From NCBI GenBank assembly GCA_945952065.1, contig CAMFGY010000002.1, forward strand, positions 186,001 to 250,000: 64,000 nt of DNA, written 5' to 3'. Within the stretch, counting starts at the first letter, position 1, and every line of letters begins with the position of its first letter. A program made the position numbers and the translations under genes. This document shows, piece by piece, positions 5,843-40,510 of the stretch. The stretch is from an uncultured Burkholderiales bacterium (lineage in GTDB: Bacteria > Pseudomonadota > Gammaproteobacteria > Burkholderiales > Burkholderiaceae_C). Below the pieces are notes generated by a model. The model did no database searches. It had not been told where the DNA came from and worked only from the letters and a program-made list of their open reading frames with translations.

Positions 5843-7117
5843 TCAAGGGGAGGGTTTGGCCTCTTCGGCGCTGGCCAATTGGGCCAAGAGCGCGGGCGTC
5901 ACCGCCTCGATCAAGCCCAGCACCTCGCCACGACGAATTGCCTGGAACTCCGGCAGCGCCTCGATCAAGGCCAGTGGCGCCTTGGCCGTCAAGAGTTGCA
6001 GGTCTTCGCTGAGGCTGCGCAAAAACTCAGGGTCATCGGGCACCTCGGCCAAGAGCGCTTGCAAGTCGGCAATGGCATCGGCACGTGCGGCCAGTTGCGC
6101 CGCGTCCAGCGCGGGCGTGGTTTCGAGCTTGAGCTTTTCTATCCACAAACGACCGCCTTGCAAGGCCGCGGCCTGGGCCAGGATTTCTTCGCGCAGCTGC
6201 GCTTCCAGGCCAAATAGCAAGCCATGCGCGGGCGTGCGCCCTTGCAGACAAACCCGCAGCGCCAAGGGCCAGTGGCCGCTTTGGCGCAGCAGCAAACCCT
6301 CCAGCGCGCGGCCCGCCAGCGCCACCACAGCGGGCAGGTCTTCGGCAGCGCTGACGTCGATGTCCAGCCGCTCCCAGCGCAACACATCCACGATCAGCCG
6401 CTCCACCGACTGAATGCCCTGGTGATCGGCGCTGACCAGCACCGCGCCTCGCGGCCCAGGCTCGCGGATATGGCGCCCCTGCAAATTGCCCGGGAACACC
6501 ACCCAGGGCGATTCGCTCAGCACCGCATGCTCATGCACATGGCCCAGCGCCCAGTAGTCATAGCCCTTGGCGCAAAGCTCGGCCAAGCTGCAAGGGGCAT
6601 AACGCGCATGTGCCGCGTAGCCTTCCAGGGCGGTGTGCAGCACGCCGATATTGAGCCAGCCGCTGAGCGGATCGGGGTAGGCCAGCGCCAGGTTTTCGGT
6701 GGTGGCGGCGTCTTTGAAGCTGCGGCCATGCAGGGCCACACGCAGCGCTTCGATGCGGTAGGTGCTGGGCCGGCGGCTGTCGAACACATGCACATTCGGC
6801 GGCAGCGTCAAACGCCGCGTCATCTCGCTTTCGGCATCATGATTGCCATAGAGCAGATAGACCGGGATGCCGGCCTGATGCAGGCGCGCCATCTCGCGCA
6901 CAAAGAAGTGACCGGTGTTGTAGTCGCGCCAGTCGCCGTCGTAGAGGTCGCCGGCAATCACCATGAAGTCCACCGCTTCGTCGATGGCCGCATCGATCAA
7001 ACGGCTGAAGGCCTCGCGGCTGGCCGAGCGCAGGGTTTGCAGCGGCGCATTGGGATAAGAGGCCAGCCCGCACAAGGGGCTGTCCAGATGGATGTCGGCG
7101 GCGTGGATGAACTTCAT
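5843..7117 (-). CDS. yhaO: YhaO/SbcD-type DNA repair metallophosphoesterase
   Basis: 424 residues with the full calcineurin-like metal-site series: FIHAADIHLDSPL (DxH) at the N-terminus, AGDLYDGD (GDxxD), YGNHDAES (GNHD) and ALGHVHEH (GHxH). Family members are Mn-dependent exo/endonucleases that work with an SMC-like ATPase (YhaN or SbcC). Its ATG overlaps the recD stop by 4 nt (ATGA), so it is very likely translated as the last gene of the recC-recB-recD transcript. That linkage is noteworthy because RecBCD and SbcCD/YhaNO both act on DNA ends. The C-terminal 150 residues are helical and poorly conserved. Confidence 0.87.
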   Translation of the reverse strand: MKFIHAADIHLDSPLCGLASYPNAPLQTLRSASREAFSRLIDAAIDEAVDFMVIAGDLYDGDWRDYNTGHFFVREMARLHQAGIPVYLLYGNHDAESEMTRRLTLPPNVHVFDSRRPSTYRIEALRVALHGRSFKDAATTENLALAYPDPLSGWLNIGVLHTALEGYAAHARYAPCSLAELCAKGYDYWALGHVHEHAVLSESPWVVFPGNLQGRHIREPGPRGAVLVSADHQGIQSVERLIVDVLRWERLDIDVSAAEDLPAVVALAGRALEGLLLRQSGHWPLALRVCLQGRTPAHGLLFGLEAQLREEILAQAAALQGGRLWIEKLKLETTPALDAAQLAARADAIADLQALLAEVPDDPEFLRSLSEDLQLLTAKAPLALIEALPEFQAIRRGEVLGLIEAVTPALLAQLASAEEAKPSP

Positions 7118-12971: not shown

Positions 12972-15900
12972 GCTGCGGCCTCCTCGGACTCGGCATGCAG
13001 TTCCAAACTCACCCCTTGTTGCAACCAGTCATGCAAGGCCCCGTACAAGCGCGGCGCCAGGGCTTCAAAACGGCCGTCGGCCGTCAAGGCCGCAAAGTCG
13101 GGGTAGAGCCGGGCCAGACAGGGCTCGTTGACCTCGCCACGGCTGTTGAAGCCGCCCTCATAGACCACGGCCACATCTTTTTGATCGGCCACCTGGGCCA
13201 GGCCGCTCAGGGCCGCGATGGGCAGGGGCTGGCGCATGCCTTCTTGCCAAAGCGCCAAGAGCTCGGCCAAATCGGCCTGCGCCTGCTCCGGTGGCAAGGG
13301 CTGCAGCGTCAGCTGCGCATCGCGCCCAATCAACACGCCTTGCAGCTGCAGGCCATGGGCACTGGCCACCAGCTGGCGCACCCAGGCCTCCAGCAAGCGC
13401 TCGGGGCGGGCCGACTTGTTTTTTTCATCGGCGCACAAACGATTGGGCAGCAGCGCCAGCCAAACCCGCTGGCCGCCCAGGGCCTGGGCGCGCAGATCGG
13501 CCAACCAGTCTTGCAAAAGCGGCTGCTCAAAGGGAAAGCTCAGCAGCTCTTTGGGCGCTTGCAGCGGATACAGCGCTTGCAGCCTGCGCCAAGCCTGCAA
13601 CATCGGCACCACGGCATCGACCAAGGCGCGCTCGGCGCGGCGCCCTTGCTCGGCCATGGGCAAGCGGCCGGCCTCGCGCATGCGCGCCGCCAGGCCGGCG
13701 ACACGGCGGGGCAGTTCAGCGTCCTCGGTGCTCTTGGGGTCCTCGACCTCAAAACCCTGCGCGGGCGGCGCCTGCAGCGCATCGTCCAGCAACTCGCTCA
13801 GCAGCTCGTGTTCGAGCAGGCCGTCCACAGCAAAGGCCTCATCGTCCTCTGCCGCCGTGGCGCTCTCGGTGAACTGCACATCCAGGCGTTGCTTGAAAAA
13901 ACTCTTCACCGGGTTCTTCAAAAAGGCCGCCAGGGTTTTGATGTCGAGCAGGGGCTGATCGGGGTCTGCGACCAAGGGCGGCAGCTCATGGCCATCGCCC
14001 TCGCTGTCCACATCGGGCTCGTCCTGCACCTCGTCCTGCGCCTGATGCGCTTGGCGCCATTCGCTGGCATGGGTAAAAAGCGCACTGCCCTGCTCGAAGT
14101 AGCGGCGGCTGAAAGGCTGCAAGGGGTGTTCGGTGCTCAGCGGAGCCAGCACGGCCTCGCCCCAGCCCGAGGCCAGATAGTCGCGCAGCTGCGAGACCAG
14201 CACCGAGGGCGGCTGCTCGCTGTTGTCGCGCACGCTGCGGCCGCTCCAGCTGATGTAGAGCTTGCGGCGCGCCGACAGCAGCGCTTCCAGAATCAGCTGG
14301 CGGTCGTCATCGCGCCGGGCGCGGTCGCCGGGGCGCAACAGGCCCGGCAGCCCCATCAGGTCAAAGTCGCTGCGGCTGCCGCGGCGCGGGTAGTCGCCAT
14401 CGTTCATGCCCAGCAGACACACCACTTCAAAAGGCACGGCACGCATCGGCATCAAGGTGCAAAACGTGACCCCACCGGCCTTGAAGCGACGGTTCAGCAT
14501 GGGCACATCCAGGCCGTCCAGCCAAGCCTCGCGCACCACGGCCAGATCCACCGCTTCAACAAACTCGGCCGCATCGCAGGCCTCCAGCCAGCTGCCCATG
14601 GCGCTTTGCAAAGCGGCCAAGGTCTGGCGCTCGCTGTCGTTTTGCGGCAAGAAAAAATCGTCCATCAAACGGCGGCCGCGCTCGGCCCACTCGGCGGGGC
14701 TGGCGGGCTCGGCCACCTGCTGCCACCAGCCTTCCAGCGCGTTCAAGAGTTCGGCCAGCGAGCCCGCCAGCGCGGCGTCCAGGCCGCCCACTTCGGTATA
14801 GGGCTGAATGCCTTGGAAGGCCGGGCCCGGCCCCGCGCTATAGCCCAGCAAGATGCGGCGCAGGCCAAAGGACCAGGCGTTTTGATCGCCACAAGCAGCC
14901 AGACCCAGCTCGGCGCGCTGCTCGGCGTTGAGGCCCCAGCGGATGCCCGCGCCCTCCATCCACTGGCTCAGGCGCGGCAAATCTTCGGCGCTGAGGCCAA
15001 AGCGCGCCGCCAGGCCCGGCACCTCCAGCAAGGCCTGGATCTCGCTCAGCCGGCAGCGCTGCTGCGGCAGGCGCAGCAGCCACTCCAGCGCCAGCAGCAG
15101 CGGGTTGTGGCCGCGCTCCTTCAGGTCGGCAATGTCAAAGGGGATGAAGCGCGGGTCCTGGCTGCGCCCATATTGGCCAAACACCGAGCGGATGGCCGGC
15201 GCAAAGCTGTCGATATCGGGCACCATGACCACGATGTCGCGCGGGCTCAGCGGCGCTTGGCCGGGCGCGGGGGCTTGGGCCAACAAGGCCAGCAGTTGGT
15301 CGTGCAGGATCTCGACCTCGCGCTGCGCGCCGTGGGCAATGTGGAATTCGATGGAGCGATCCTGCGGCGCCAGCGCCCGGCGCGGATGCTCGGCCAGGGG
15401 CGTCAGGTCGCGGATATGCGCTTGCACCTGGGCCAACAAGGTCTCGCCCGGGCCCTCGTCAAAGAGGTCGATCTTGGCTATGCCGAAGCGCTCTTGCGCC
15501 TGGGCGGCGTCGTCAAAGGCGTCGAGCTGGCGCACAAAGTCGCGCCCCTGGCGGCCCCAGCTGGCCAGCAGCGGATGCGCATGGGCATGCATCTGCTCCA
15601 GCGAGAGTTCGGCCAGATCGACGCCGCCGCGCAGCGGTTGGCGCCGCTTGTTTTGTGCGTTACGCAGCAGCTCGCGGCCATCGATGATGTCGGCCCAGTG
15701 GTAGCGGCAAGGGTTGGGGATGGCCAGAATCACCTGGCAATGCTCGGACAGGGCCGCCAAGGCCTGCAAGGTCTGCATCGGCACATGGGTCATGCCAAAC
15801 AACACCACGCGGCGCGCCATCGGGCTTTGCGGCACGCGCCCTTGCTGCAAGGCCTGCACAAAGCGTTGATGCAGCTGCGGCCGCGAAGCCTCGCGCTGCT

Positions 15901-16525
15901 GCGCCGACAGCGGCGCCAGCAACGCGCGCCACAGCGCCGCCTGCCAACGCTGGTCCGCCGGCAGCGGCAGCGCGTTGGCAAGCGCCTCGCCCGCGCTGCG
16001 GGGCAACACATCCTGGCCCTGCGCCCAGGCCTCCAGCCAGTCGCTGCGGTAGACCTGGTACTGGTCCAATAAATCGGCCAAGGCCTGCGCCAGCTGCAAG
16101 CGCCGCTCCATGGCGCCCAGGCGCAAAAAACCGGCCAGCGGCTCAAAGCCGGGCTGCTGGGCTAACTGCGGCAACAAGCGCATCAAGGCCCAGGTCAGCG
16201 GCAGCTTGTCCAGCCGCGACTGTGAAGGCACCGCCTCCCGCCCCAGCATCTGCCGATAAGCGCGCCACAAAAAGCGGCCCGGCAGCTCGACCCGGGTGGC
16301 GGCGCAAATGCCGGCCTGCTCGGCCAAGGTCATCTTCAACCACTCGGCCACGCCATTGCTCTGCACCAGAAAGATCTCTTCTTCCAGGGCACCCAAGGGA
16401 TGGCGACGCAGCCACTCAAACACCGTCTCGCCCAAAAGCTCGGCACGGTTGCCATGCAAGACCAAGAGGCCGGGCGTGATGGGAGGCTGGGACGGGCTGG
16501 AATTCGGGGTGCGGCTGCCGCTCAT
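12968..16525 (-). CDS. recC: RecC, exodeoxyribonuclease V gamma subunit
   Basis: 1185 residues. The N-terminus GLLVLHGNRAELLGETV, then EIFLVQSNGVAEWLKMTLAE and PGRFLWRAYRQML, aligns with the start of RecC. Later RAVPFEVVCLLGMNDGDYPR and FDLMGLPGLLRPGDRARRDDDR are typical RecC landmarks. RecC is a helicase-like but inactive scaffold that reads Chi. The start is uncertain: the ATG at 16525 is used, while a TTG at 16591 would add 22 low-complexity residues and has its purine stretch too close. It is the first gene of the recCBD-yhaO unit, 99 nt after the Ala/Gln-rich gene on the same strand. Confidence 0.95.
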   Translation of the reverse strand: MSGSRTPNSSPSQPPITPGLLVLHGNRAELLGETVFEWLRRHPLGALEEEIFLVQSNGVAEWLKMTLAEQAGICAATRVELPGRFLWRAYRQMLGREAVPSQSRLDKLPLTWALMRLLPQLAQQPGFEPLAGFLRLGAMERRLQLAQALADLLDQYQVYRSDWLEAWAQGQDVLPRSAGEALANALPLPADQRWQAALWRALLAPLSAQQREASRPQLHQRFVQALQQGRVPQSPMARRVVLFGMTHVPMQTLQALAALSEHCQVILAIPNPCRYHWADIIDGRELLRNAQNKRRQPLRGGVDLAELSLEQMHAHAHPLLASWGRQGRDFVRQLDAFDDAAQAQERFGIAKIDLFDEGPGETLLAQVQAHIRDLTPLAEHPRRALAPQDRSIEFHIAHGAQREVEILHDQLLALLAQAPAPGQAPLSPRDIVVMVPDIDSFAPAIRSVFGQYGRSQDPRFIPFDIADLKERGHNPLLLALEWLLRLPQQRCRLSEIQALLEVPGLAARFGLSAEDLPRLSQWMEGAGIRWGLNAEQRAELGLAACGDQNAWSFGLRRILLGYSAGPGPAFQGIQPYTEVGGLDAALAGSLAELLNALEGWWQQVAEPASPAEWAERGRRLMDDFFLPQNDSERQTLAALQSAMGSWLEACDAAEFVEAVDLAVVREAWLDGLDVPMLNRRFKAGGVTFCTLMPMRAVPFEVVCLLGMNDGDYPRRGSRSDFDLMGLPGLLRPGDRARRDDDRQLILEALLSARRKLYISWSGRSVRDNSEQPPSVLVSQLRDYLASGWGEAVLAPLSTEHPLQPFSRRYFEQGSALFTHASEWRQAHQAQDEVQDEPDVDSEGDGHELPPLVADPDQPLLDIKTLAAFLKNPVKSFFKQRLDVQFTESATAAEDDEAFAVDGLLEHELLSELLDDALQAPPAQGFEVEDPKSTEDAELPRRVAGLAARMREAGRLPMAEQGRRAERALVDAVVPMLQAWRRLQALYPLQAPKELLSFPFEQPLLQDWLADLRAQALGGQRVWLALLPNRLCADEKNKSARPERLLEAWVRQLVASAHGLQLQGVLIGRDAQLTLQPLPPEQAQADLAELLALWQEGMRQPLPIAALSGLAQVADQKDVAVVYEGGFNSRGEVNEPCLARLYPDFAALTADGRFEALAPRLYGALHDWLQQGVSLELHAESEEAAA

Positions 16526-16624
16526 AGGGTTCTGCAAAGATGGCGTCTCGGGCTGGGGCGGGCGCCGTCTTGGCCCAGAGCTGGAAGCCAAGCCTCCCTC
16601 ACGCCCGTCACTGAAGCCCGCACT

Positions 16625-26865: not shown

Positions 26866-29800
26866 ATGACCGCACGCCGTCACAAAAACGTCACGCCAAG
26901 CCAGCCGCTGGCAGCCTCCGCGCGCTTGAAGCGCCAAGCCGCCCAGACAGGCGCCCGCGCGTTGCGCCCGACCTGCTTGGCGGCAGCGAGCTTGCTGATG
27001 GCCATGAGCGCCAGCCATGCGAAGGTTTTCATCCTGCCCGCCGATGGCAGCAGCTTCATCACCCAGCCGGCCGGCATGGTCCCGGCCGATACCTTGCTGG
27101 TGCGCGGCACTGGCGCCTTGACGATTCTGGGCAACTTCACCCACACCGGCACCTTGTTCGTTGAAAACGGGCGGGTCAATGTCGGCGACGGCGGCACCGT
27201 GGGTTCCATCAGCAACAGCACGGTGGAACTCAACAGCGTCAGTTCGATCTTGGCCTTCAATCGTTCCGACAATCTGAGCTTCGCCGGCACGATCCAGGGG
27301 GATGGTCGGCTGCTCAAGTACGGTAGCGGTGAACTCACCCTGACCGGCTTCAATGGGCAGCTGCGGGGCGGCGCACTGCTGGGCGGCGGCACCCTGGTGC
27401 TGGGCTCGGGCTCGGCTCTGGGCAGCGGCAGCATCCGCTTCGAAGGTGGCGCCCTTCGTTACACCGCAGTCAGCGCTTCCGGTCTGGCGCGCGACTATTC
27501 CTTCCAATTTGACCGCGGCGATGACCAGCGCTATGCGGTGGACACAGGCGGCCAGCGAGTCAGCTGGGGCGGCGATCTGAGCAGCCTGGGCGGCGAATTG
27601 GGCAAGTTCGGCGCGGGCACCTTGGTGCTCAGCGGCGCCAACAACTACACCGGCAACACCTCGGTCACGGCCGGCAATCTGCTTTTTGCCAAGCGGCAAT
27701 CGCTGTACAACGGTGACACCAGCCAGTGGCGTGCCGACAAGCTGAGCGTGAGCGCCGGGGCGGTCGCCGCCTTCGCCGTGGGTGGCAACGGCGAATTCAC
27801 GGCCGCTGACATCGACCAGCTCAAGCTGCTCAGCACACCGGGGATCTCCGACACCCGGGGCTTTCAAAGTGGCGCCTTCCTGGGCCTGGACACCAGCAAT
27901 GCCAGCGGCGGCCGCTTCGTCTATGCCAGCAATATTGCCGACAACGCCGGCAAGCGCTTGGGCCTGGCCAAACTGGGCGCCGGCACCCTGGTGCTGAGCG
28001 GCGCCAACAGTTTCTCGGGCGGGGTCCAATTGCAAGAGGGCGTGCTCGCCCTGGGCTCCGCCCAGGCGCTGGGCACACAAGGCAGCATCAGCTTCTTGGG
28101 CGGCGCCTTGCAATACTCCAGCGTCAACGCGCTGGACTATTCGGAACGCTTCAGTCGTGCGGACAAGCAGCAGTTCAAGGTGGACACCAATGGGCGCGAT
28201 GTGCGCTGGGCCACCGGCTTGGTGAGCGCCGGCGGCTCGCTGGAAAAGCTGGGCAACGGCAGCTTGACCCTTTTGGAGCCGACCGTGTTGAGCGGCGGTA
28301 CCAAGATCCAAGCCGGCTCCCTGATCTTTGCGCACAGCGGCTTTGCTGAGCTGGGCGGCTCGCTCGAAGGCAGCGGCACCCTGCAAGTCAGTGGCAGCGG
28401 CCAACTCACCCTGAGCGGCGCCAGCTTGCTGAGTGGCAACACTGCCCTCAACAGCGGCACCCTGCTCTACACCAATCGCACCGCTTTCTACGACGATGAC
28501 CCCACGCAATGGGGCAAGCTGTCGGTGGCGCCTGGCGCCACCTTGGGTCTGCGCGTGGGCAGCGGCGGGCTGGACTTCAGCGCCGCCCACATCGATCAGG
28601 TGCGCAGCCGGGTCAATGCCGGCGCCGGCTTGCCCAATGGCGCCCTCTTGGGCCTGGACCTGGCATCGGGCAGCTACACCTATGCCAGCAATCTGAGCGG
28701 CAGCAATGGCAAGGCCTTGGGCTTGGCCAAATTGGGTGGCGGCACCTTGGTGCTCAGCGGCAGCAACAGCTTCGCTGCGGGCACCGAGCTGCGGGCCGGT
28801 GGCCTGGAATTGGGCAGCGCCCAAGCGCTGGGCAGCCAAGGCAGCATCAGCTTCAGCGGCGGCATGCTGCGCTACACAGGCAGCAATAGCCAAGACTATT
28901 CAAGCCGCTTCAGCACGGCCGCCAACCAGGTCATCAAAGTCGACACCAACGGCCAAAACGTCAGCTGGGCCAGCGGCCTGGTCAGCGAAGGCGGCAGCCT
29001 GACCAAGGCGGGCAATGGGACGCTGACGCTGAGCGGCGTCAACCGTTATACCGGCTTCACCGACATCCAAAATGGCAGCCTGGTCATTGCCAGCAACGAT
29101 GCACAAACCCTGACCGGCGCCGTGGTCGGCCGCGGCAACTTCACCAAATCGGGCTGGGGCAATCTCGTGCTGGCCGGCGACAACGGCGGTTTCTCGGGCG
29201 ACCTGTACCTGGATAACGGCAGCTTGGAGCTGGGCTCGGCCAAGGCCTTGGGGAATAGCGCGATCTACTTCCGTGGCGGCACGCTCAAGTACAGCAGCGC
29301 CTTCACCCAAGACAACTCGCAGAACTTCTCCAGCACCTATGGCGGCGACCAAGGCTTTACCGTCGATTACAAGGTCGACACCAATGGACAGCAAATCAGC
29401 TGGGCCCGCGACTTTTACGGAGTTGGCAACGCCAACCCGCTCTTGTCCAAGTTCGGCGCGGGCACCCTCACCCTGACAGGCATCGGCGCCTTCTCCAATG
29501 TCTACCTGAGCGAAGGCACGCTCAATCTGGGGTCGGGTGCCGCGGTGAGCCTGGGCTCGCAATGGATTTTTGCCGGCGGTACCCTGCAATACAGCGACAA
29601 AAACACCCAGGACTACTCTTCCCGCCTGAACAGCCGCCCCGGACAAAACCAACAGCTTCGGGTGGACACCAATGGGCAGAACGTGACTTGGGCCAACGGC
29701 TTGGCCAATCAAGACAGGTACACCACCTCGGTGACCAAGCTCGGCCCGGGTACCTGGACGCTACGCGGCGCCAACACCTACACCGGCACGACCGAGGTGC

Positions 29801-32800
29801 TCGGCGGGCGCCTGCTGTTCGCCAAGCGCCAAGCGCTTTACAACGGTGACACCAGCCGCTGGACCGCAGGCAATGTTCGCGTGGCCAATGGCGCCACCGC
29901 GGTCTTCCCGGTCGGCGGCAATGATGAGTTCAACGCCAGCGACCTTGACCGCATCAAGTCACTGGGCTTCGTCACTGGCTCCCTGCTGGCCTTGGACACC
30001 AGCAATGCCAGCGGCGGCCGCTTCAGCTATAGCGGCGCCATCGCCGATCTCGGCGGCAACAAACTGGCCCTGGTCAAAGAAGGCACAGGGGTGCTGGAGC
30101 TCAGCGGCAACAACAGCTTCTCGGGCGGCATCACGCTGCAAAACGGCGTCCTGGCCCTGGGCTCGGCCCAGGCTTTGGGCACACAGGGGCTGATCAGCTT
30201 CGAAGGCGGCGTGCTGCAGCATGGCAGCGCCAATGCGGTGGACTACTCCAGCCGTTTCAGCACGGCCTTTGGCCAGCAATTCAAGGTCGACACCGGCGGG
30301 CGCAACATCGTCTGGGCCGGCTCTTTGGCCGGCTCGGGGAACAGCCTGGTCAAACAGGGCATGGGGCAGCTGCAACTGCTGGCCCCCTACAACAATTTCA
30401 GCGCTGGCGTGCAGCTGCAAGCCGGCGTGCTGGCCCTGGCCGGCGATGGCGCACTGGGCTCGGAGGGCCGCATCAGCCTCGAGGGCGGCACCCTGCAATT
30501 CAGCGCTGCGAACACACGGGACTATTCCGCTCGCTTCGTCAACGCCGGCAATCAGCAATACAAGCTCGACACCAACAATCAGGTCCTGAACTGGGCCAAC
30601 CCGCTGCAGAACGCGAGCGGCAATCTCAGCAAGCTCGGCGCGGGCAAGCTGGTCTTGACCAATGATGTGAGCGTGGCCAGCAGCAGCATCGAAGCAGGCA
30701 CGCTGCAAATTGGCAATGGCGGTCGCAGTGGCCGGCTGAGCGGCGCCATCAACTTGAAGAGCGATCTGATCGTCAATCGCAGCGATGCGCTCAGCTTGAA
30801 TGATTCGATCTCCGGCAGCGGCCGCCTGCTGCAAATCGGCAATGGCAAGCTGAGCCTGAACAAGCTCGACGGGGCCTTCACGGGCCAGCTGGAAGTTCAG
30901 GGCGGCACGCTGGAGCTCAATGGCGCCAGCGCCGGTTCGGTCAATGCAAGCATCAACAATCAAAGCCAGTTGCTGCTCATCGGCACGCTGGCTTTGAATG
31001 GCAAACTCACCAGCGAGGGCAGCATCCAACTGGGCACCGGCAGCGCAGTGACCATCAACGGTTCCAACACCATCAACGGCCCGCTCGTTTTAGGGACTGG
31101 CGCGGCCATCACTTTGGGCAACGACCGGGCCTTGGGCAGTCAGTACGGCGGCAGCATCAGCTTCGAACAATCCAGCCAGCTCTTGCTGAGCAGCCGCGGC
31201 GGCTTTTACTACACCAGCGACCGCACCACCGATTACTCCTACCGTTTCAGCGATATCGCCAACCAGGTTTTTTCGGTTCACACCGGTGGCAACGACGTGC
31301 AATGGGGCGCCAATTTCAGTGGCGCCGTGGCGAATTGCGGCAGCAGCTGCGGCAACAAGGGGCAGCTCTTGCTCGCGGACGGCGGCAGCTTGACGCTGAG
31401 CGGCAAGAACGCCTTCAACCAAGTCAGCGTGAAGTCATCGACCCTGCGTATCGGCAATGGCAGCCGGGCGGAACTCACCGGCGGCAGCGTCAAACTCGAT
31501 GGCCGCAGCACCCTGGTCTTGGATCGCGTGGGCGACTTTGCCTATGTGCTGCCTGAAATCACCGTCATGTCGAGCAGCAGCAGCAGCAAGCTCAGCAAGC
31601 AAGGCAGCGGCCATGCGTCCGTCGCCGCCCTGCGGGGTACCGACAGCACGGTCTTGAATGTGCAATTGCTGGACGGCAGCTTGGGCGCCGGCACCCGCAG
31701 CAACCTCAGCCGTGTGAGCTTCAACTTCGCGGGAGGCGCCCTGTCCAACAAGGGCTTTGACAACAGCGGCACGCCGCGCACCATGGCGGACTTCGACCTC
31801 TCGGCCTACTTCAGCCAGAGCGCAGGCCAACGCTACCGCATGGACACGGCCGGCATTGACGTCAGCTGGGCCACCTCGCTGAACAGCGCGCAAGCTTCCT
31901 TGCAAAAGGAAGGCGCAGGCCTGCTGTCGCTGTTGCGCAGCAATAGCTTTGAAGGCGGTGTGCTGCTGCGCGGCGGCACCCTGGGTCTGGACGCGGCCAA
32001 TGCCATCGGCAGCCAGGGCGAAATCGACTTCCAAGGCGGCACGCTGCGCTACTCCGCCGCCTATCGCCAGGATGATTCGGCGCGCTTCTCCGCAGCCGAT
32101 CAGCAGCTCTACAACGTGGACACCAATGGCCAAGACATTGTGTGGCGCAGTGGCCTGAACAGCCTAGGCGGCAGTTTGCTCAAGCAAGGGGCGGGCAGCC
32201 TCACGCTGACGGGCAGCAACGGCTTCGACGGTGCCAGCAAGGTGGCAGCCGGCACCCTGCAAATCGGCGATGGCGGCAGCAGCGGCAGCCTCGTCGGCGA
32301 TGTGATCTTGGCCGCTGGCAGCCGCTTGGGCTTCAATCGGGCCGACGCCCTGAGCTTCGCCGGTGCCATCCAAGGCGAAGGCCAGCTGTTCAAAAATGGC
32401 GCGGGCACTTTGACCCTGACCGGGCTCAGCGACCACATCGGCGGCACCCAGATCAACGCCGGCACATTGCAGATCGGCGGCACCGGCACCGAGCTGCGAG
32501 TGCTGCAAGGCGCCATCGTCAACCAGGGCCAGCTCAGCATCAATCGCAGCGGGCGTGTGGACATTGCCGGCGACCTCAGCGGCAGCGGCGCGCTCAATTT
32601 GCTCGGCAGCGGCACGGTGGCGCTGCAAGGCAATAACAGCTTCTCCGGCATGGTCAATCTCAATAACGGCGTCTTGGAGTTGGCCTCGGCCACCGCCCTG
32701 GGCAGCAACACCGCCAGCCTGATCAATTTCAATGGCGGCGTTTTGAGCTACAGCGCCGCCAACGCGCTGGACTACTCCGACCGATTCAGCAAGACAGGCA

Positions 32801-34089
32801 AGCAGCAATTCAAGGTTGACACAGCCCAGCAAAACGTTCGCTGGGCGGCCAATCTGAGCAGCAGCAGCGGCGCTTCGCTGACCAAGATGGGCGAAGGCGT
32901 GCTGAGCCTGAGCGGCAACAATAACTTCGCCAATGATGTGACGCTGCAGGGCGGCGTGCTGGCCTTGGACTCGGCCAACGCCCTGGGCGGCCTCGGTGCG
33001 ATTCGCTTCGTCGGTGGCAGCGTGCGCTACAGCAGCGCCAACGCGCAAGACCTCTCGGGCCGCATCGCGCCGGTCAACAACCAGCAGATCAAGGTGGACA
33101 CCAATGGCCAGACGGTCAGCTGGAAGACCGCCATCACCGCGGCGGGCAACTCTGTGCAGAAGAGCGGCTTGGGCCGACTCAGCCTGGAAGGTTCGCTGAG
33201 CAGTCTGGGCGCAGTCAACATCGCAACCGGCGAACTGGCGCTGAGCGCTCAAGCAGGCCGGGTGGAGACTTACAGCGGCGCCACCAGTGGCAGCGGCACC
33301 CTGGTCAAAACCGGTCAGGGTCAGCTGAATCTGCGCGGCACGCTGGGCCACACCGGCAAGACCCAGATCGAGGCCGGCATTCTGGACCTCAGCAGCAACC
33401 AGGCCCTGAGCTTCGCAGGCGACATCGTCGGCGCCGGTCAATTGCAAAAGTCCGGCACGGGCACGCTCAGCCTGCAAGGCCTGGTGCAGCACACCGGCAG
33501 AACCAACATCAAGCAAGGCGCGCTCGAAGTGGGCCAAACGCTGGCCGGCAGCTCGCTGCTGACCATCGACCGCGGCGCAAGCCTGATCAGCAGCAGCTCG
33601 CGGGCCGTGACGATTGCAGCTGCCGACGTGGCCATGAACGGCATCTTGGCGCCGGGCGGCACTGGTTTGGGTGAGATGGACTTCGCGCTCAGCGCCAACG
33701 GCAAGCTGCGCTTGGACACCAGCAGCGAATTGCGCTTCGATCTTGGGGCCCAACAAGACCTGATCAGCTTTGACCGCGTGGGCGATTGGCTCAGCGGCAG
33801 CGGCAAAGCCAAGCTGGTGCTGAACCTGGGCGGCGCGGACTTTGACTATGGCAAGACCTACACGCTCTTCCACAACGTCAGCGCCGCCGACTTCAGCTTC
33901 AACAGCATCAGCGGCTTTGACAGCCAGCTCTACAGCGTCAAGCTGCTGCACAACGGCACGGACTACAGCTTGCAGTTCAGCGCAGCCGCCGTGCCTGAGC
34001 CGCAGACCTACGCCATGCTCTTGGCCGGCCTGGCTTTGCTGGGCGCCTATGGCCGGCGCCGCCTTGCGCCTCGGGCTTTGACCCATTGA
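26866..34089 (+). CDS. Giant autotransporter-type beta-strand-repeat protein with PEP-CTERM sorting signal
   Basis: 2407 residues. A long signal region (residues 1-52, hydrophobic core LRPTCLAAASLLMAMSASHA) precedes Gly/Ser/Asn/Leu-rich repeats such as LxKxGxGTLxLSGxNxFSGG followed by LxxGxLALGSAQALG, the autotransporter-associated beta-strand repeat. A motif of the form DYSxRFS...Q.KVDTNGQ.V.W recurs 12 times, about every 100-200 residues. A longer module (LLFAKRQxLYNGDTSxW) recurs three times. There is no autotransporter barrel. Instead the C-terminus has VPEP at 2376-2379, a hydrophobic segment and GRRR, the PEP-CTERM signal cut by exosortase, so it is sorted to the surface or exopolysaccharide. 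A GGGAAG site precedes the ATG. No exosortase gene is in the window. Confidence 0.93.
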   Translation: MTARRHKNVTPSQPLAASARLKRQAAQTGARALRPTCLAAASLLMAMSASHAKVFILPADGSSFITQPAGMVPADTLLVRGTGALTILGNFTHTGTLFVENGRVNVGDGGTVGSISNSTVELNSVSSILAFNRSDNLSFAGTIQGDGRLLKYGSGELTLTGFNGQLRGGALLGGGTLVLGSGSALGSGSIRFEGGALRYTAVSASGLARDYSFQFDRGDDQRYAVDTGGQRVSWGGDLSSLGGELGKFGAGTLVLSGANNYTGNTSVTAGNLLFAKRQSLYNGDTSQWRADKLSVSAGAVAAFAVGGNGEFTAADIDQLKLLSTPGISDTRGFQSGAFLGLDTSNASGGRFVYASNIADNAGKRLGLAKLGAGTLVLSGANSFSGGVQLQEGVLALGSAQALGTQGSISFLGGALQYSSVNALDYSERFSRADKQQFKVDTNGRDVRWATGLVSAGGSLEKLGNGSLTLLEPTVLSGGTKIQAGSLIFAHSGFAELGGSLEGSGTLQVSGSGQLTLSGASLLSGNTALNSGTLLYTNRTAFYDDDPTQWGKLSVAPGATLGLRVGSGGLDFSAAHIDQVRSRVNAGAGLPNGALLGLDLASGSYTYASNLSGSNGKALGLAKLGGGTLVLSGSNSFAAGTELRAGGLELGSAQALGSQGSISFSGGMLRYTGSNSQDYSSRFSTAANQVIKVDTNGQNVSWASGLVSEGGSLTKAGNGTLTLSGVNRYTGFTDIQNGSLVIASNDAQTLTGAVVGRGNFTKSGWGNLVLAGDNGGFSGDLYLDNGSLELGSAKALGNSAIYFRGGTLKYSSAFTQDNSQNFSSTYGGDQGFTVDYKVDTNGQQISWARDFYGVGNANPLLSKFGAGTLTLTGIGAFSNVYLSEGTLNLGSGAAVSLGSQWIFAGGTLQYSDKNTQDYSSRLNSRPGQNQQLRVDTNGQNVTWANGLANQDRYTTSVTKLGPGTWTLRGANTYTGTTEVLGGRLLFAKRQALYNGDTSRWTAGNVRVANGATAVFPVGGNDEFNASDLDRIKSLGFVTGSLLALDTSNASGGRFSYSGAIADLGGNKLALVKEGTGVLELSGNNSFSGGITLQNGVLALGSAQALGTQGLISFEGGVLQHGSANAVDYSSRFSTAFGQQFKVDTGGRNIVWAGSLAGSGNSLVKQGMGQLQLLAPYNNFSAGVQLQAGVLALAGDGALGSEGRISLEGGTLQFSAANTRDYSARFVNAGNQQYKLDTNNQVLNWANPLQNASGNLSKLGAGKLVLTNDVSVASSSIEAGTLQIGNGGRSGRLSGAINLKSDLIVNRSDALSLNDSISGSGRLLQIGNGKLSLNKLDGAFTGQLEVQGGTLELNGASAGSVNASINNQSQLLLIGTLALNGKLTSEGSIQLGTGSAVTINGSNTINGPLVLGTGAAITLGNDRALGSQYGGSISFEQSSQLLLSSRGGFYYTSDRTTDYSYRFSDIANQVFSVHTGGNDVQWGANFSGAVANCGSSCGNKGQLLLADGGSLTLSGKNAFNQVSVKSSTLRIGNGSRAELTGGSVKLDGRSTLVLDRVGDFAYVLPEITVMSSSSSSKLSKQGSGHASVAALRGTDSTVLNVQLLDGSLGAGTRSNLSRVSFNFAGGALSNKGFDNSGTPRTMADFDLSAYFSQSAGQRYRMDTAGIDVSWATSLNSAQASLQKEGAGLLSLLRSNSFEGGVLLRGGTLGLDAANAIGSQGEIDFQGGTLRYSAAYRQDDSARFSAADQQLYNVDTNGQDIVWRSGLNSLGGSLLKQGAGSLTLTGSNGFDGASKVAAGTLQIGDGGSSGSLVGDVILAAGSRLGFNRADALSFAGAIQGEGQLFKNGAGTLTLTGLSDHIGGTQINAGTLQIGGTGTELRVLQGAIVNQGQLSINRSGRVDIAGDLSGSGALNLLGSGTVALQGNNSFSGMVNLNNGVLELASATALGSNTASLINFNGGVLSYSAANALDYSDRFSKTGKQQFKVDTAQQNVRWAANLSSSSGASLTKMGEGVLSLSGNNNFANDVTLQGGVLALDSANALGGLGAIRFVGGSVRYSSANAQDLSGRIAPVNNQQIKVDTNGQTVSWKTAITAAGNSVQKSGLGRLSLEGSLSSLGAVNIATGELALSAQAGRVETYSGATSGSGTLVKTGQGQLNLRGTLGHTGKTQIEAGILDLSSNQALSFAGDIVGAGQLQKSGTGTLSLQGLVQHTGRTNIKQGALEVGQTLAGSSLLTIDRGASLISSSSRAVTIAAADVAMNGILAPGGTGLGEMDFALSANGKLRLDTSSELRFDLGAQQDLISFDRVGDWLSGSGKAKLVLNLGGADFDYGKTYTLFHNVSAADFSFNSISGFDSQLYSVKLLHNGTDYSLQFSAAAVPEPQTYAMLLAGLALLGAYGRRRLAPRALTH

Positions 34090-34327: not shown

Positions 34328-37300
34328 ATGTCGTCCATCTCGTCTTTGTCGCCCAGTCAAATCGCCGCACTCAGCACGGCCACCATTGCCGCCCTGGGCA
34401 GTGCCGACTGGCTGGCCTTCAGTGGCGAGCAAATGGGGGCCCTGACGGCGGCCCAGCTCAGCGCCATGTCGAGCGGCGCCTGGAACACCATCAGCACCAG
34501 TCAACTCGGCAGCCTGAGCGAAGACGCGCTGCACGGCATGAATGCCCGCGCCATCAGCCTGTGGCCCACCCGGCTGCTGAGTGCCTTGCAAGACGAGCAA
34601 CTGGCCGCTCTCGACACTTCGGCCTTCCGCGCCCTGACCGCCAGCCAGGCGCCGGCCCTGCAGCCCAGCTGGTTGCAACACCTCAGCAGCCCGCAGCTGC
34701 AAGCGATCAGCAGCCAGGCTTTGACGGCCCTGGACAGCAGCCAGATCAAGCAGCTGGCCCTGGATACGGTGCAGAACCTGGCCAGCGCGCAGATTCAGGT
34801 CTTGCGCACCCAGCAGGTGGCAGCCTTCAGCACCGAGCAAGTGGCCGCGCTGAGCGTGGCCCAGTTGCAAGCGGTGAACACCGCGCAGATCGTGGCCATG
34901 AGCAGCAGCCAGATCCAAAGCCTGGGGCTGGAACAGGTGCAAGGCTTGGCCAGCCAGCAAGTGGCGGCCCTCAGCAGCACACAGCTCAACACCTTTTCAG
35001 ACCAGGAGTTGCAAGGCCTGGGCAGCGCCCAGCTGCGCGGCCTGAGCGCGCAACAACTGAATGCCCTGGGCTCCAGCCGCCTGGGCAATTTCGACGAATC
35101 CCAGATCTCGCTCCTGGGTTCGCGCCAACTCAGCGGCCTGGCCTCCGAGACCTTGTCGGCCTTCAACACCGCCCAGATCCAAGCCTTGAGCACCGCCGCC
35201 TTGCGCGCCTTGGGCAGCAGCCAGTTGCAAGGGCTGGACGGCGACCAGGCCGCCGCCCTCACCCCCGCGCAGCTGGGCGCACTCAGCAGCCAAGCCATAC
35301 GCGGGCTCAGTGACCGCGCGTTGGGCGGCTTGGAAGTGAGCGATCTGGGGTCGCTGACCTCCAGCCAGCTCAATGCCATGAGCACCCATCAGCTGCAGCA
35401 GCTGAGCCCGGACCAGATCGCCGCGCTCAGCACCAATGCGCTGCGCGGCTTGGCTACACTGGGCGCCGCCGCCCTGACGCCTTTGCAGCTGGGCGCCCTC
35501 AGCTCCGACCAGCTCGGCGCCTTCAGCACCCAAGCGGTGCGCGCCTTCCAGCTGAGCCAGCTCAACGCGCTCTCGGTGGACCAGTTGGACGGTTTGAGCG
35601 CCGCCCAAGTCAGCGCGCTCAGCACTGCGCAGCTGCAAGGCATGAGCGCCGCCTCGATTGACAGCTTCTCGGTCAAGCAGCTGCAGGCCCTGAGCTCCGC
35701 TCAATTTGCACGTTTGAACACCGCAGCCCTGGAAGGCTTGACGGCCGAGCAGTTCGCAGGCCTGAGCAGCAAGCAGTTGCTGGGCTTGAGCAGCGCGCAG
35801 TTCAGCCTCTTGAGCGCCGACGAGGTGGCCGCGCTCAGCATCAGCGCCTTGCGCGGCCTGAGCAGCACCCAGGTGGCCGGCTTTAGCGCCGAAGATTTTG
35901 TGGCCCTGAGCAGCAGCCAGATGCAGGCCTTGAATGCCAACAGCCTGCGCGCCCTGGGCGACGGCCTGATCGACAAGCTGGGCCTGGACCAATTGGGCGA
36001 GCTGAGCTCCAGCCAGCTGGCGGGCTTCACGCTCAGCCAAATCCGCCACCTGAGCCCGGAGCAAATCGCGGCCTTGAGCACCTCGGCCCTGGCCGGCTTG
36101 GGGGCCACCACTGCCGCCGCGCTGACCACCGCCCAGATCGCCGCCTTGGACAACGAGCATCTGCGCGCCCTCTCGCCCGCGGCCCTGAATGCCTTGAGCA
36201 GCGCCGCTGTGGGCGGGCTCAGCCCGGCCCAGCTGGCCGGCCTCAGCACCAGCCAGATCGCCGCCCTGGGCAGCGCCCAAATCGCGGCCCTGGACGCCCA
36301 CCAAATCGACGCCCTCAGCGCCGCCCAAATCGCGGCCTTGAGCAGCCAGCAAATCAGCCGCCTGAACGAGCAGGCCTTGGCGGCGTTGAATGCCGATCAA
36401 CTGGGCGCACTGAGCGCCCGCCAACTGGCAGGCCTGACAACGCAGCAAATCGGCACGCTCACGCCGGACCAGTTCCGCTTCATCGCGCCGCAAGCCTTCT
36501 CGGCACTGAACAATGCGCAGCTCGGGGCCCTGAGTGCTGCCGACATGGCCGCCCTCAGCGGCGCACAAATTGGCGCCCTGGGGGCCGGCCAGTTGCGCGC
36601 CCTGCCCGATGCCACCTGGGCCGCCCTCAGCATTGACCAGTTGGCCGGCATCAGCGCCAGCCAAGCAGCCGGCCTGGGCGCCAAGCAAATCCAAGCCCTC
36701 AGCCCCGGCCAGTTGGCGGCACTTTCGCCCGCCGCCTTGCATGTGCTGAGCGCCGTGGCCGGTGGCGCGATGAGCGTGCCGCAGATTCAAGCGCTGAGCC
36801 CCGAGCAGCTGGCCAATCTGCCCACCCAGGCCATGAGCAGCTGGAGCAGCAGCCAGCTGCAAGCGCTGAGTGCCGATCAATGGCTGGGCCTGGGCAGCGC
36901 TCACATCAGCGCGCTCAGCCTGGCCCAGGTCGCCACGCTGACGGGCAGCCAGTTGCAGCACTTCAGCACGGCCGAGCTGGCCGCGCTGAGCGCCAGCCAA
37001 ATGAGCAAGCTCAGCAGCCAAGCGCTGCAAGGCCTGGAGAATGAACAACTGGCCGCGCTGAGCGCCAAGCAGCTGCAAGCCTTCAGCAGCGCCCAGCTGC
37101 GCGCCCTCAGCAATGAACAGTTGGCAGCCCTGAGCCCGGCGGCTTTGGCCGGCCTGTCGGTGGCCACGGTGGCGGGGATGAGCAGCAGCCAGCTGTCGGC
37201 CCTCAGCGCCAGCCAGTTGGCGGGGCTGAGCGCCGCCCAGCTGCATGCCTTCAGCGACAGCCAGCTGGCCGGGCTGAGCACACAGCAAATGAGCGGATTG

Positions 37301-40300
37301 CTGGGCAGCCAGTTGTCCAGCCTGACGGCCCAGCAGTTCGCGCAGCTCACGCCTGCCCAGGTAGCGGCGCTCAGCAGCTCGGCCTTTGCGGCCCTGCCCA
37401 GCTCGGCGGCGGCCGCCCTGCTGAGCGCACAGGTGAGCGCCCTCAAAACCGAGCAATGGGCCGCCTTGAGCTCCCAAGCCGCGCATGCCATCTCCGCGTC
37501 CAACTGGGGCCTGCTCAGCAGTGCCCAAGCCGCGGCGCTGAGCACCGCCGCCCTGGGCGCCCTGAATAGCGCGCAGTTCAGCAGCTTGTCGGGCGACGCG
37601 CTGCATGCCTTGGGCTCGGCCCAGTTGCTGGCTTTGAACAGCGCCGAAATGCGCAGCCTGGGCACCCAAGGCTTGGCGGCCTTCAGCGACAGCCAATGGG
37701 TCAGCATGGGCTCGCGCCAGTTGCAGGCCTTGAGCAGCAGCCAATTGGGCGCGCTCAGCGCCGCAGAAATGAAGGCGCTGAACAGCACGGCGCTGAGCGG
37801 GCTGAGCAGCCAGCAATGGCTGGCCTTCAACACCGAGCAGATCCATGCACTCAACAGCGCGGCCCTGCAAGCGCTGAGCGGCAGCACCCTCGCCGGCCTG
37901 AGCCTCAGCCAGGTGCAGGCCCTGGACTCGGCGCAGATCCGCGCCCTGGCGGGCGCCGCCCTGCAAAAGCTGGACAGCCAGCAGCTGCAAGAGTTCAGCA
38001 GCGCCCAGTTCCAGGCCTTCAGCAGCAACCAAATCGGCGCCTTGAGCGCTAATGTCTTGCCTGCACTGACCGAGCAGCTGGCTTGGTTGGGCAGCCATCA
38101 GCTGATGGGCTTGAGCGCCACCCAAGTGGCGGCCTTCACCAGCGCCGACTTGCGCGTGCTCAACAGCAGCCAGATCGGGGCCCTCAGCGCCGGTGCCATC
38201 GCAGCCCTCAACACCGCAGCCCTGAGCGTGCTGAGCTCGGCGCAGCTGTCCGGCTTGAGCACCGGCCAGATGCAGGCCTTGACGGTGGCCGAGGTGCAGT
38301 CGCTGAACACCGCCCAGCTCGATGCCTTGAACAGCCAGCAAATCGGCGCGCTCATGCCCAGCGCCATCGCCGCCCTGAACAGCGACCAGCTGGCGGTGGT
38401 GGCCGCGCACAATTTGGCCGCCATCAGCCCGAGTGCTTTTGCCACCCTGGGCAGCGCGGCGATTGCCCAGCTCACTTCGGTGGCACGGCCCGAGCTCAGC
38501 ACCGCCCAGCTCGGCGCCTTGACGGCGGCGCAAGCCCCAGGCCTGGGCACAGCCGAATTGGCCAGCCTGACCGAGGCGCAGATGTCGGCCCTGTCTTTGG
38601 CCGCGGTACAAAACCTCAGCAGCGCGCAGTTCAGCGCCTTCAACAGCAGCCAGATCCTGGCCCTGAGCAGCGCGCAGTTTGGCGTGCTCAGCAGCAAAGA
38701 ATTGCCGCTGCTGGACCTGGCCACCTTGCAAGCCCTCAACCCGGCCCAGCTGCACGCCCTGAACAGCAGCCAGGTACAGCTGCTCAGCGATGCGCAGCTG
38801 CAAGCCATCAGCCCGGACAGCATCGCCGCCCTGACGCCCGCCGCCTTGCATGCCTTGGGCGCGGCGCATTTGGCGGCCCTGCGGCCGGCGCAGATTGCCG
38901 CCCTCGGTGCGGACCAGCTGGCCGAGCTGGACGCCAGCCAGATCCGCGCCCTGCCCACGGCCTCCTTGCAGGCGATGAATCTGGCCCAGATGTCTTTGCT
39001 GAGTACTGCCCAGGTGCAGGCGCTGAGCCTGAGCCAGGTCAGTGCCTTGCTGCCGCAGCAGGTCGTGGCCTTGAGCGTCCCGGCCGTGGCGGCGCTCAAT
39101 CTGGATCAGCTGCAAGCGCTGAGCCCGGAGCAAATCGGCAGCCTGAGCCCCAGCCAGCTCAATGCCCTCTCGGTCTTTCACCTCAGCAATTTGAGCAGCA
39201 GCGCGATTGCCGCCCTCAGCGTCGAGCAGCTGGGTGGGCTCAATGTCTTGCAGGTGCTCAGCATGAAGCCCGAGCAACTCGGCGCGCTCAGCCCCGAGCA
39301 AATGCAAGGCCTGAGCACGGCCGCGCTGCACGCCATGGCGCCCACCCAATTCGATGACTTCCGGCCCGAGCAGGTGGCAGGTCTGACAGGCACGCAGTTC
39401 GCAGCCCTGACACCGGCTGAAATCCGCACCCTCAGCCCGGCCCACATCACCGCCCTGGAGGGCCAGCATCTGCAAGCGCTGACGCCCACGCAGGTCAGCG
39501 CCCTCAGCGTGGCGCAGGTGCAGGCCATCGGCCCGCAGGAGTTGGCCCTGTTCAGCAGCAAACAGATCGCGGCCCTGGGCGCCGATGAGGTGGGCGCCTT
39601 GTCGGTGGAGCAGCTGAATGCGCTGCCTCTGAGCAATATGCCGGCCTTCACGCAGGCACAGATCGCCAGCCTGAGCACCACCACGCTTTCGCACATGGAC
39701 ATGAGCCATGTGGCCGCCTTCACCGGCTTGCAGCGCGAGGCCATGACGCCCGATCAGCTGGCCGCCTTGAGCGCCGCATCACCGCTGGTGCTGGACCTCA
39801 GCGGCATCGGGGTGCAAACCGTCGATGTGGCGCATGGCGTGAGCTTTGACATCAATGACACCGGCCAGGCCACACAGATCGGCTGGGTGGCCCAGGGCAG
39901 CGGCCTGCTGGCCTTGGACCGCAATGGCAATGGGCAGATCGACAGCGGCGCTGAACTCTTTGGCACCGCCACCCGCTTGGCCAACGGCCATTTGGCCGAC
40001 AACGGTTTTCAAGCCCTGGCCCAGCTGGACAGCAATCACGACGGCAAGATCAGCGCTGCAGACGCAGAGTTCGATCACCTCAAAGTCTGGGTGGACAGCG
40101 GCCAAGGGCATGCGGGCAAACTGCTCAGCCTCAAGGAGCTGGAGGTGGTGGAGCTGGACCTGCATGCCACTGCCCAAGACAGGATCCAGAACGGGAATTT
40201 GATCGGTCTGGAAGGCGCCTACAAAACCAGCGACGGCAAGAGCCATGAGTTGGCCGATGTGTGGTTTGGGCAGAGCGCCAATGCCGGCGCCGCGCATCAC

Positions 40301-40510
40301 GCCACAACGAGCGCCGCGCCACCGACCCTGGGCGATTTACTGCAAGCACCGTCCGGCCCCTTGTTGGCCGAGGCCGGCAGCGGCGCGGCCGATGGGGCGC
40401 ACAGCCCCAGCCGCGCGCACACCGGCGAGGGCTGGTTGAGCAGCTACAGCCTGGAGCAACTCAAGCAGCACCACGACCCACAGCAGCAGAACAACAACTG
40501 GTTGATCTGA
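34328..40510 (+). CDS. Giant octapeptide-repeat protein with C-terminal calcium-loop domain
   Basis: 2060 residues, ATG after GGAG. From residue 7 to 1813 it consists of 226 consecutive octapeptides, consensus [L/F/M/I]-[S/T/N/G]-x-x-[Q]-[I/L/V]-x-[A/G], with Leu1 and the aliphatic at 6 nearly invariant. Only unit 156 (LTEQLAW, residues 1247-1253) departs from length 8. I saw no Cys or Tyr in the array. After it, a domain at about 1815-1960 has LDRNGNGQIDSGAELFG (Asp at 1864) and LDSNHDGKISAADAEFDHLKVWVD (Asp at 1901), calcium-binding loops common in large secreted RTX-type and adhesin proteins. There is no signal peptide, no PEP-CTERM and no barrel, so type I secretion or a cytoplasmic location are both possible. 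Function is unknown; a surface filament or adhesin stalk is my inference. Confidence 0.88.
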   Translation: MSSISSLSPSQIAALSTATIAALGSADWLAFSGEQMGALTAAQLSAMSSGAWNTISTSQLGSLSEDALHGMNARAISLWPTRLLSALQDEQLAALDTSAFRALTASQAPALQPSWLQHLSSPQLQAISSQALTALDSSQIKQLALDTVQNLASAQIQVLRTQQVAAFSTEQVAALSVAQLQAVNTAQIVAMSSSQIQSLGLEQVQGLASQQVAALSSTQLNTFSDQELQGLGSAQLRGLSAQQLNALGSSRLGNFDESQISLLGSRQLSGLASETLSAFNTAQIQALSTAALRALGSSQLQGLDGDQAAALTPAQLGALSSQAIRGLSDRALGGLEVSDLGSLTSSQLNAMSTHQLQQLSPDQIAALSTNALRGLATLGAAALTPLQLGALSSDQLGAFSTQAVRAFQLSQLNALSVDQLDGLSAAQVSALSTAQLQGMSAASIDSFSVKQLQALSSAQFARLNTAALEGLTAEQFAGLSSKQLLGLSSAQFSLLSADEVAALSISALRGLSSTQVAGFSAEDFVALSSSQMQALNANSLRALGDGLIDKLGLDQLGELSSSQLAGFTLSQIRHLSPEQIAALSTSALAGLGATTAAALTTAQIAALDNEHLRALSPAALNALSSAAVGGLSPAQLAGLSTSQIAALGSAQIAALDAHQIDALSAAQIAALSSQQISRLNEQALAALNADQLGALSARQLAGLTTQQIGTLTPDQFRFIAPQAFSALNNAQLGALSAADMAALSGAQIGALGAGQLRALPDATWAALSIDQLAGISASQAAGLGAKQIQALSPGQLAALSPAALHVLSAVAGGAMSVPQIQALSPEQLANLPTQAMSSWSSSQLQALSADQWLGLGSAHISALSLAQVATLTGSQLQHFSTAELAALSASQMSKLSSQALQGLENEQLAALSAKQLQAFSSAQLRALSNEQLAALSPAALAGLSVATVAGMSSSQLSALSASQLAGLSAAQLHAFSDSQLAGLSTQQMSGLLGSQLSSLTAQQFAQLTPAQVAALSSSAFAALPSSAAAALLSAQVSALKTEQWAALSSQAAHAISASNWGLLSSAQAAALSTAALGALNSAQFSSLSGDALHALGSAQLLALNSAEMRSLGTQGLAAFSDSQWVSMGSRQLQALSSSQLGALSAAEMKALNSTALSGLSSQQWLAFNTEQIHALNSAALQALSGSTLAGLSLSQVQALDSAQIRALAGAALQKLDSQQLQEFSSAQFQAFSSNQIGALSANVLPALTEQLAWLGSHQLMGLSATQVAAFTSADLRVLNSSQIGALSAGAIAALNTAALSVLSSAQLSGLSTGQMQALTVAEVQSLNTAQLDALNSQQIGALMPSAIAALNSDQLAVVAAHNLAAISPSAFATLGSAAIAQLTSVARPELSTAQLGALTAAQAPGLGTAELASLTEAQMSALSLAAVQNLSSAQFSAFNSSQILALSSAQFGVLSSKELPLLDLATLQALNPAQLHALNSSQVQLLSDAQLQAISPDSIAALTPAALHALGAAHLAALRPAQIAALGADQLAELDASQIRALPTASLQAMNLAQMSLLSTAQVQALSLSQVSALLPQQVVALSVPAVAALNLDQLQALSPEQIGSLSPSQLNALSVFHLSNLSSSAIAALSVEQLGGLNVLQVLSMKPEQLGALSPEQMQGLSTAALHAMAPTQFDDFRPEQVAGLTGTQFAALTPAEIRTLSPAHITALEGQHLQALTPTQVSALSVAQVQAIGPQELALFSSKQIAALGADEVGALSVEQLNALPLSNMPAFTQAQIASLSTTTLSHMDMSHVAAFTGLQREAMTPDQLAALSAASPLVLDLSGIGVQTVDVAHGVSFDINDTGQATQIGWVAQGSGLLALDRNGNGQIDSGAELFGTATRLANGHLADNGFQALAQLDSNHDGKISAADAEFDHLKVWVDSGQGHAGKLLSLKELEVVELDLHATAQDRIQNGNLIGLEGAYKTSDGKSHELADVWFGQSANAGAAHHATTSAAPPTLGDLLQAPSGPLLAEAGSGAADGAHSPSRAHTGEGWLSSYSLEQLKQHHDPQQQNNNWLI
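34346..39766 (+). repeat. 226 imperfect 24-nt tandem repeats encoding octapeptides
   Basis: Parsed by eye, the array gives 225 units of 24 nt and one of 21 nt (38066-38086), total 5421 nt. DNA copies differ freely at synonymous and surface positions, while the Leu, Ser, Gln and aliphatic codons persist, so the array is old and kept by selection rather than freshly amplified. Confidence 0.9.

Follow-up and report, generated by a model that had tools for sequence, protein, structure and literature searches.

What is built when a bacterium strings more than two hundred eight-residue units together in one chain, and where would such a protein act? The question arises from a 64,000-nucleotide stretch of DNA (hereafter the window) from an uncultured Burkholderiales bacterium, positions 186,001 to 250,000 of contig CAMFGY010000002.1 (assembly GCA_945952065.1), in which a single open reading frame at 34328–40510 on the forward strand encodes a protein of 2060 amino acids. 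Unit boundaries were set by a dynamic-programming parse of this protein, and residues 7–1813 were found to consist of 225 octapeptides (octads) and one heptapeptide, 226 consecutive units in all. The parse scored 3304, compared with −159 (standard deviation 46) across 50 residue shuffles. A preliminary description had counted 226 units at 34346–39766, one of them of deviating length, and both the count and the coordinates proved exact. The acidic residues of the array recur periodically, and the chain very likely forms a helical screw. The parts of the gene are as follows:

34328–34345, forward strand: N-terminal leader MSSISS, residues 1–6, from the translation; the array begins directly behind it.
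34346–39766, forward strand: octad array (Pfam ALTTAQ_rpt), residues 7–1813, from the parse and the PF20080 match.
38066–38086, forward strand: the sole short unit, LTEQLAW, residues 1247–1253, unit 156 of the parse, kept in the ortholog L079.
39767–39781, forward strand: junction LSAAS, residues 1814–1818, with Ser at its end where FrpC has its clip Asp.
39782–40264, forward strand: FrpC-like self-processing-module domain, residues 1819–1979, from a phmmer match to 6sjw and ligand counts.
40265–40507, forward strand: C-terminal tail of 81 residues (1980–2060) ending in NNWLI, likely a type I secretion signal.

No two of the 224 parsed octads were alike. Counted over these 224, without the final octad MTPDQLAA (residues 1806–1813), position 1 was L, F, M or I in 220, position 2 was S in 112, position 5 was Q in 137, position 6 was L, I, V, F or M in 204 and position 8 was A, G or S in 180. 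Short N-termini like MSSISS were also seen in the paralogs C38 and C49a, named after their contigs, and in several relatives. At the other end, 56 of 83 array-fused frames closed with two hydrophobic residues, and the tails of three paralogs were aligned. Antisense to the array runs an open frame of 1570 amino acids (34997–39709, reverse strand), with comparable antisense openness in the relative L053; it probably arises from the codons of the repeat.

The octads certainly belong to the ALTTAQ repeat family, Pfam PF20080, which matched in 60 stretches over the whole array length (E=8.2e-220; 710.6 bits against a cut-off of 26.4). In addition, the PDB chain 9zem ("HeliScrew4") matched residues 1570–1686 in a phmmer search (E=5.7e-17). 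The units had initially been considered as a possible new repeat class; the profile search places them in PF20080 and 9ZEM carries the same octads, and the class is therefore not new. The likeness to PF20080 holds throughout the array, but the Pfam model covers 38 residues and the window array comprises 226 units fused to an FrpC-like module. HeliScrew4, compared by name and sequence alone, is a chain of 120 residues with the same LTPEQIAA-type octads and a gap-free printed alignment; it differs in being short and apparently free-standing. We know of no function attached to the ALTTAQ repeat, and literature searches confined to open-licence PMC papers found no paper on the octad family. Other family matches to the array were weak or due to low complexity and were set aside. 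CAAP1 and LRR_EndoS rose above their Pfam cut-offs but had either no stretch at all or none of their own passing the limit, swamped as they were by PF20080. EF-hand models on the array stayed below the Pfam cut-offs, and two NCBIfam matches to the array, at 21 bits, were far under theirs. Matches to LRR, TAL-effector, lanmodulin and mesothelin PDB chains were far weaker than that to 9zem and were attributed to composition.

Position 4 of the window array carries 39 acidic residues, which recur every 3.37–3.40 octads. This periodicity, with a power of 16.8 matched by 0 of 20,000 shuffles, was the strongest of 69 position/class features; within units 1–155 the power of the acidic period reached 21.2. 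Similarly, among 55 genuine long arrays of at least 60 octads (a 56th was an antisense artefact), 45 showed an acidic period of 3.3–3.5 octads at position 4 or 5, equalled in at most 1 of 1,000 shuffles. The long arrays are related to each other, so that these 45 are not independent cases. Only features that exceeded a power limit entered the phase counts. Of the 37 arrays with a strong signal at position 4, 24 had periodic basic residues at position 7, and in 23 of these 24 the phase of the basic residues lay at 0.47–0.74; acidic residues at position 5 lay within 0.21 turn of those at position 4 in 21 of 24 arrays. A period of 3.39 octads corresponds to a screw of about 27 residues per turn. 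We infer that the array makes about 67 such turns with one acidic face, opposed by a basic face in many relatives, and a screw pitch of about 3.39 octads is likely. The very long thin rod envisaged in the preliminary description thus receives indirect support, by way of this superhelical period.

Could the period instead be the fossil of an ancestral duplication of 17 or 27 octads, with no structural pitch behind it? Block duplications of these two lengths are widespread and bear the same charge pattern. Among 50 runs in which one offset clearly led (one of the runs being an antisense artefact), 47 had a leading offset of 10, 17, 24, 27, 34 or 44 octads; 17 was the top offset in 21 runs and 27 in 13. 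These offsets are near-integer multiples of 3.39, for which just 7 of 45 possible offsets qualify. Yet within the window array, two units separated by 17 or 27 positions were only 0.02–0.04 more alike than average, while the 5/17 harmonic had a power of 19.8 and the other seven harmonics of 17 did not exceed 5.9. Since the blocks are barely visible there and only the 3.4 component is strong, structure is a simpler cause than ancestry, and since no other harmonic is strong, the period is not merely the ghost of a 17-octad block. Moreover, the block lengths used by different lineages differ but agree in pitch, and we consider a fossil origin unlikely.

The composition of the octads is consistent with a helical screw. 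In a set of 8,328 distinct octads from 95 arrays (one an antisense artefact; arrays with fewer than 15 units or a score below 150 were left out), position 2 was Ser or Thr in 59% and position 3 in 73%. Acidic residues accounted for 22% at position 4 and 17% at position 5, and basic residues for 14% at position 7; Pro peaked at position 3 with 4.0% and was at most 1.3% at all other positions. We take this pattern to be N', N-cap and N1–N4 at the beginning of a helix that carries both a hydrophobic staple and a capping box. Each octad, so read, fits the composition of such a start, and the helix N-capping proposed earlier agrees with these frequencies. The octad would be a short helix, its staple formed by positions 1 and 6 and its capping box by Ser/Thr at position 2 and Gln, Glu or Asp at position 5.

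It was also proposed that the strict unit length is under selection, and the comparison with seven orthologs bears this out. Array identity was 81% with L079, 53–55% with L085, L086, L087 and L090, and 46–48% with L073 and L082. The only indels were one 3-residue deletion, in four of the seven, and two 80-residue insertions of ten octads each, in L073 and L082. Against the nearest ortholog, L079 of Paucibacter sp. Y2R2-4, in which the MFS, MerR and LysR neighbours are kept at 79–82% identity, so that the window stems from a close relative of this strain, difference counting gave an overall dN/dS of 0.13; position 5 was 96% identical and position 4 only 64%. The low complexity of the sequence, which is rich in A, S, Q and L and free of cysteine, would suggest a low-complexity protein that stays inside the cell or is disordered and lacks a fixed fold. 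Such a protein would not be expected to show indels that preserve the octad frame at 46–81% identity, nor this dN/dS and this inequality between positions, and a relative of 15 octads has a PDB entry. We regard such a protein as highly improbable.

The array passes in phase into a module homologous to the self-processing module of FrpC (PDB 6sjw; E=1.3e-30, phmmer). We compared 92 module hits, leaving aside those that scored under 60 bits or began beyond model position 15 as well as the own-genome duplicates L013–L015; an octad array preceded the module in 83. The last octad ended five residues before the module Pro in 62 of 78 array fusions. In FrpC, the residue before the first Pro of the module is the Asp of the clip site. 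Among the 78 readable array fusions (5 were unreadable) it was Ser in 41, Thr in 36, Ala in 1 and Asp in none, and the window protein has Ser-Pro in place of Asp-Pro; in the 9 array-less modules it was Asp in 6 and Ser in 3. Three Ser-Pro modules without octad arrays were seen in L097 and L098 (Ideonella paludis), where the clip is lost without octads.

Calcium sites were defined as in an excerpt of PMC7078468. By these definitions, the sites D462–E474 and D499 onward were kept in 45 of 45 aligned modules. The window module lacks the ligands at D421, D423, D456, N523 and E532 and keeps D462–E474 and D499–D503, so that two of the four FrpC calcium sites are degraded. In the window-type group, D421 and D423 and with them ligands of calcium site 1 were gone in all 8 proteins. 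The same excerpt reports that changing D478 weakens FrpC cleavage, and this position was Asp in 0 of 45 aligned modules. Compared with the FrpC module as partly described there (PDB 6SJW, 6SJX), then, the domain is homologous and shares the kept calcium sites; it differs in having Ser, Thr or Ala at the clip Asp in all readable octad fusions, and the window protein has no RTX repeats. A working clip-and-link module, which would cleave the array off and join it to a neighbour in calcium, might be expected from the clear homology and from the equivalent of D579, kept in 45 of 45. The scissile-bond Asp that it would require is missing from every readable array fusion, D478 and the site 1 residues are gone as just described, and this is the most improbable of the readings that we weighed. 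With the Asp-Pro clip lost, the module would more likely be a folded cap after export than a self-cutting linker.

RTX glycine-rich nonapeptide motifs were absent from the window protein (0 found), and at least three such motifs occurred in 1 of 83 array proteins, compared with 1–12 motifs in each of the six Asp-Pro proteins. By these RTX and clip-residue counts, array-bearing proteins have lost the clip and carry octads where RTX repeats stood before. Type I adhesins, those of the RTX kind and others, are alike in giant size, in a C-terminus without a recognised domain and in an LssB-type exporter in the genome; they are unlike in that octads here stand in place of the RTX nonapeptides.

The genome itself (5.27 Mb, 74 contigs) holds further octad frames only at contig ends, namely on C38, at both ends of C49 and on C23. 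The frames on C23 and at one end of C49 (C49a) have a common end string, ISTAVVRALATDVLAAF. These frames are most simply explained as two more long proteins split by the assembly, C38 with C49b and C49a with C23. Within the genus, 17 of 18 genomes, our own among them, contained PF20080; elsewhere in the family it occurred in 1 of 5 genera, and in the order in 0 of 16 genomes. At E<=1e-10, it was present in 6 of 299 genomes sampled across the phylum, again counting our own. Named relatives are mainly Burkholderiales (Paucibacter, Roseateles, Pelomonas, Aquabacterium, Rubrivivax), with Pseudomonas, Geobacteraceae, Accumulibacter and Thiobaca among the others. Two phage records matched: MT835772 matches only part of the module, and Vibrio phage F23s1 is unrelated. 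At the start of the latter record (L106:2-572), a perfect tandem repeat of HIRRLSPA is annotated as a hypothetical protein.

How could such proteins leave the cell? Contig C49 carries the one gene of the genome that exceeds the curated LssB-family ABC cut-off (795 bits; cut-off 693) and the one HlyD gene above its own. Together with a TolC-like gene (71 bits, under its own cut-off) they form an operon between the two octad frames. Directly upstream lies the only GT41 gene of the genome, with TPR and Glyco_transf_41 domains and with XcOGT and human OGT as its closest PDB relatives. Between the octad genes, around the operon, there are also sugar genes: a GT2, a GT10 (fucosyltransferase-like), a DegT aminotransferase and an acetyltransferase.

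Similar arrangements were sought around the best 80 of 105 related loci; many of these loci lie at the ends of contigs from metagenome-assembled genomes, and the neighbourhood counts are therefore lower bounds. GT41 occurred in the flanks of 22 of the 80, and in 13 it came immediately downstream, in the same orientation and less than 700 bp away. By chance about 0.3 would be expected, since the flanks total about 725 kb and the relatives, about 169 Mb in all, contain about 65 GT41 genes by hand count. A Pseudomonas plasmid has GT41 starting 118 bases past an octad gene, with type I genes nearby. Within the genus and among the matches listed, GT41 and octads lie at most 40 kb apart on one contig in our genome and in 9 of the 17 further genomes with octads that were searched (a count that includes G022 of a sister genus); in the remaining 8, GT41 is on another contig, the octads are outside the matches listed, or no GT41 was found (G002). 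None of the six Asp-Pro loci had GT41.

That GT41 glycosylates octad proteins is, from gene order, a good hypothesis. The adhesin HMW1 with its enzyme HMW1C, as far as described in extracts of PMC3983070 and PMC3012730, likewise combines an exported protein of large size with a GT41 enzyme of the cytoplasm in one locus; HMW1, in those extracts, is N-glycosylated and uses two-partner secretion, whereas the enzyme here is OGT-like with TPRs and the putative exporter is of type I. The same exported rod might instead be unglycosylated, GT41 acting on polysaccharide or flagellin, for example, and Ser and Thr just capping helices. The octad Ser/Thr positions are indeed those expected for helix N-caps, and the surroundings of the operon on C49, with the genes named above, resemble a surface-sugar cluster. 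On the other hand, the 13 loci with GT41 as the next gene span Pseudomonas, Geobacteraceae, Accumulibacter, Methylococcaceae and Betaproteobacteria, and the adjacency recurs on the Pseudomonas plasmid. We hold the unglycosylated rod to be a doubtful alternative, albeit one to be taken seriously.

Taken together, the gene would encode a giant surface rod built of ALTTAQ repeats rather than RTX repeats, exported by type I secretion and probably O-glycosylated beforehand, and this is the reading that we favour with some reservation. With its acidic face, the rod would be about 65 nm long at an assumed rise of about 1 nm per turn, and its screw would continue in phase into the calcium-binding FrpC-like module. 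In this genome the single LssB-HlyD-TolC operon on C49 would serve for export, and octad Ser and Thr would be glycosylated beforehand, in the cytoplasm, by the OGT-like GT41 encoded beside it. Type I export is likely for the family, and we infer it for the window protein. The repeat, its family, the charge periodicity, the junction in phase, the lost clip site and the gene neighbourhood are observed directly; the fold, export, glycosylation and surface or adhesive role are all putative, as read from sequence.

Several observations weigh against this reading. Past the heptad, units 157–226 (38087–39766) do not have the acidic period (power 1.4 at 3.40), and it was not significant in 10 of the 55 long arrays, including both from Pseudomonas, which show 2.44–2.45 octads instead. 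Volume covariation between core positions was of no use, with correlations that did not exceed 0.15 and nulls that were similar. A second, weaker ABC/HlyD pair is located at 382–385 kb of contig C1, and LssB-like and HlyD-like genes stood together in the flanks of only 10 of the 80 loci, two of them array-less. GT41 was present in 31 of 39 relatives, many of them octad-free, and co-occurrence alone therefore says little. No secretion or GT41 gene was found among the scanned neighbours of the window gene, and none of its seven orthologs had a convincing one in its flanks; the window protein would consequently depend on C49 in trans.

Elsewhere in the window, just upstream at 26866–34089 (forward strand), a second giant repeat protein of 2407 amino acids is encoded, in which PATR beta-strand repeats (PF12951) are numerous and a PEP-CTERM sorting motif (PF07589) is present. 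At 7114–16591 (reverse strand), RecD-, RecB- and RecC-like genes lie in a row beside a metallophosphoesterase and an AAA_27 protein, an ordinary arrangement.

What is new here is the charge period, the basic residues in opposite phase, the near-integer block lengths and the loss of the clip in array fusions. It is possible, and we suggest it only tentatively, that these proteins make up a distinct class of surface fibres: screws of about 3.39 octads per turn with opposite acidic and basic faces, growing by whole turns (blocks of 7, 10, 17, 24, 27, 34 and 44 octads), with a clip-less FrpC cap, cytoplasmic O-glycosylation by a dedicated OGT-like GT41 and linked type I export. The pitch and charged faces of a solenoid could then be read straight from its sequence, with duplications that keep whole turns, and this is testable against 9ZEM. 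For design, such a rod would be a simple building block of modular make. If type I export is indeed linked with an OGT-like enzyme, eukaryote-like cytoplasmic glycosylation would be connected to a family of giant bacterial surface proteins.

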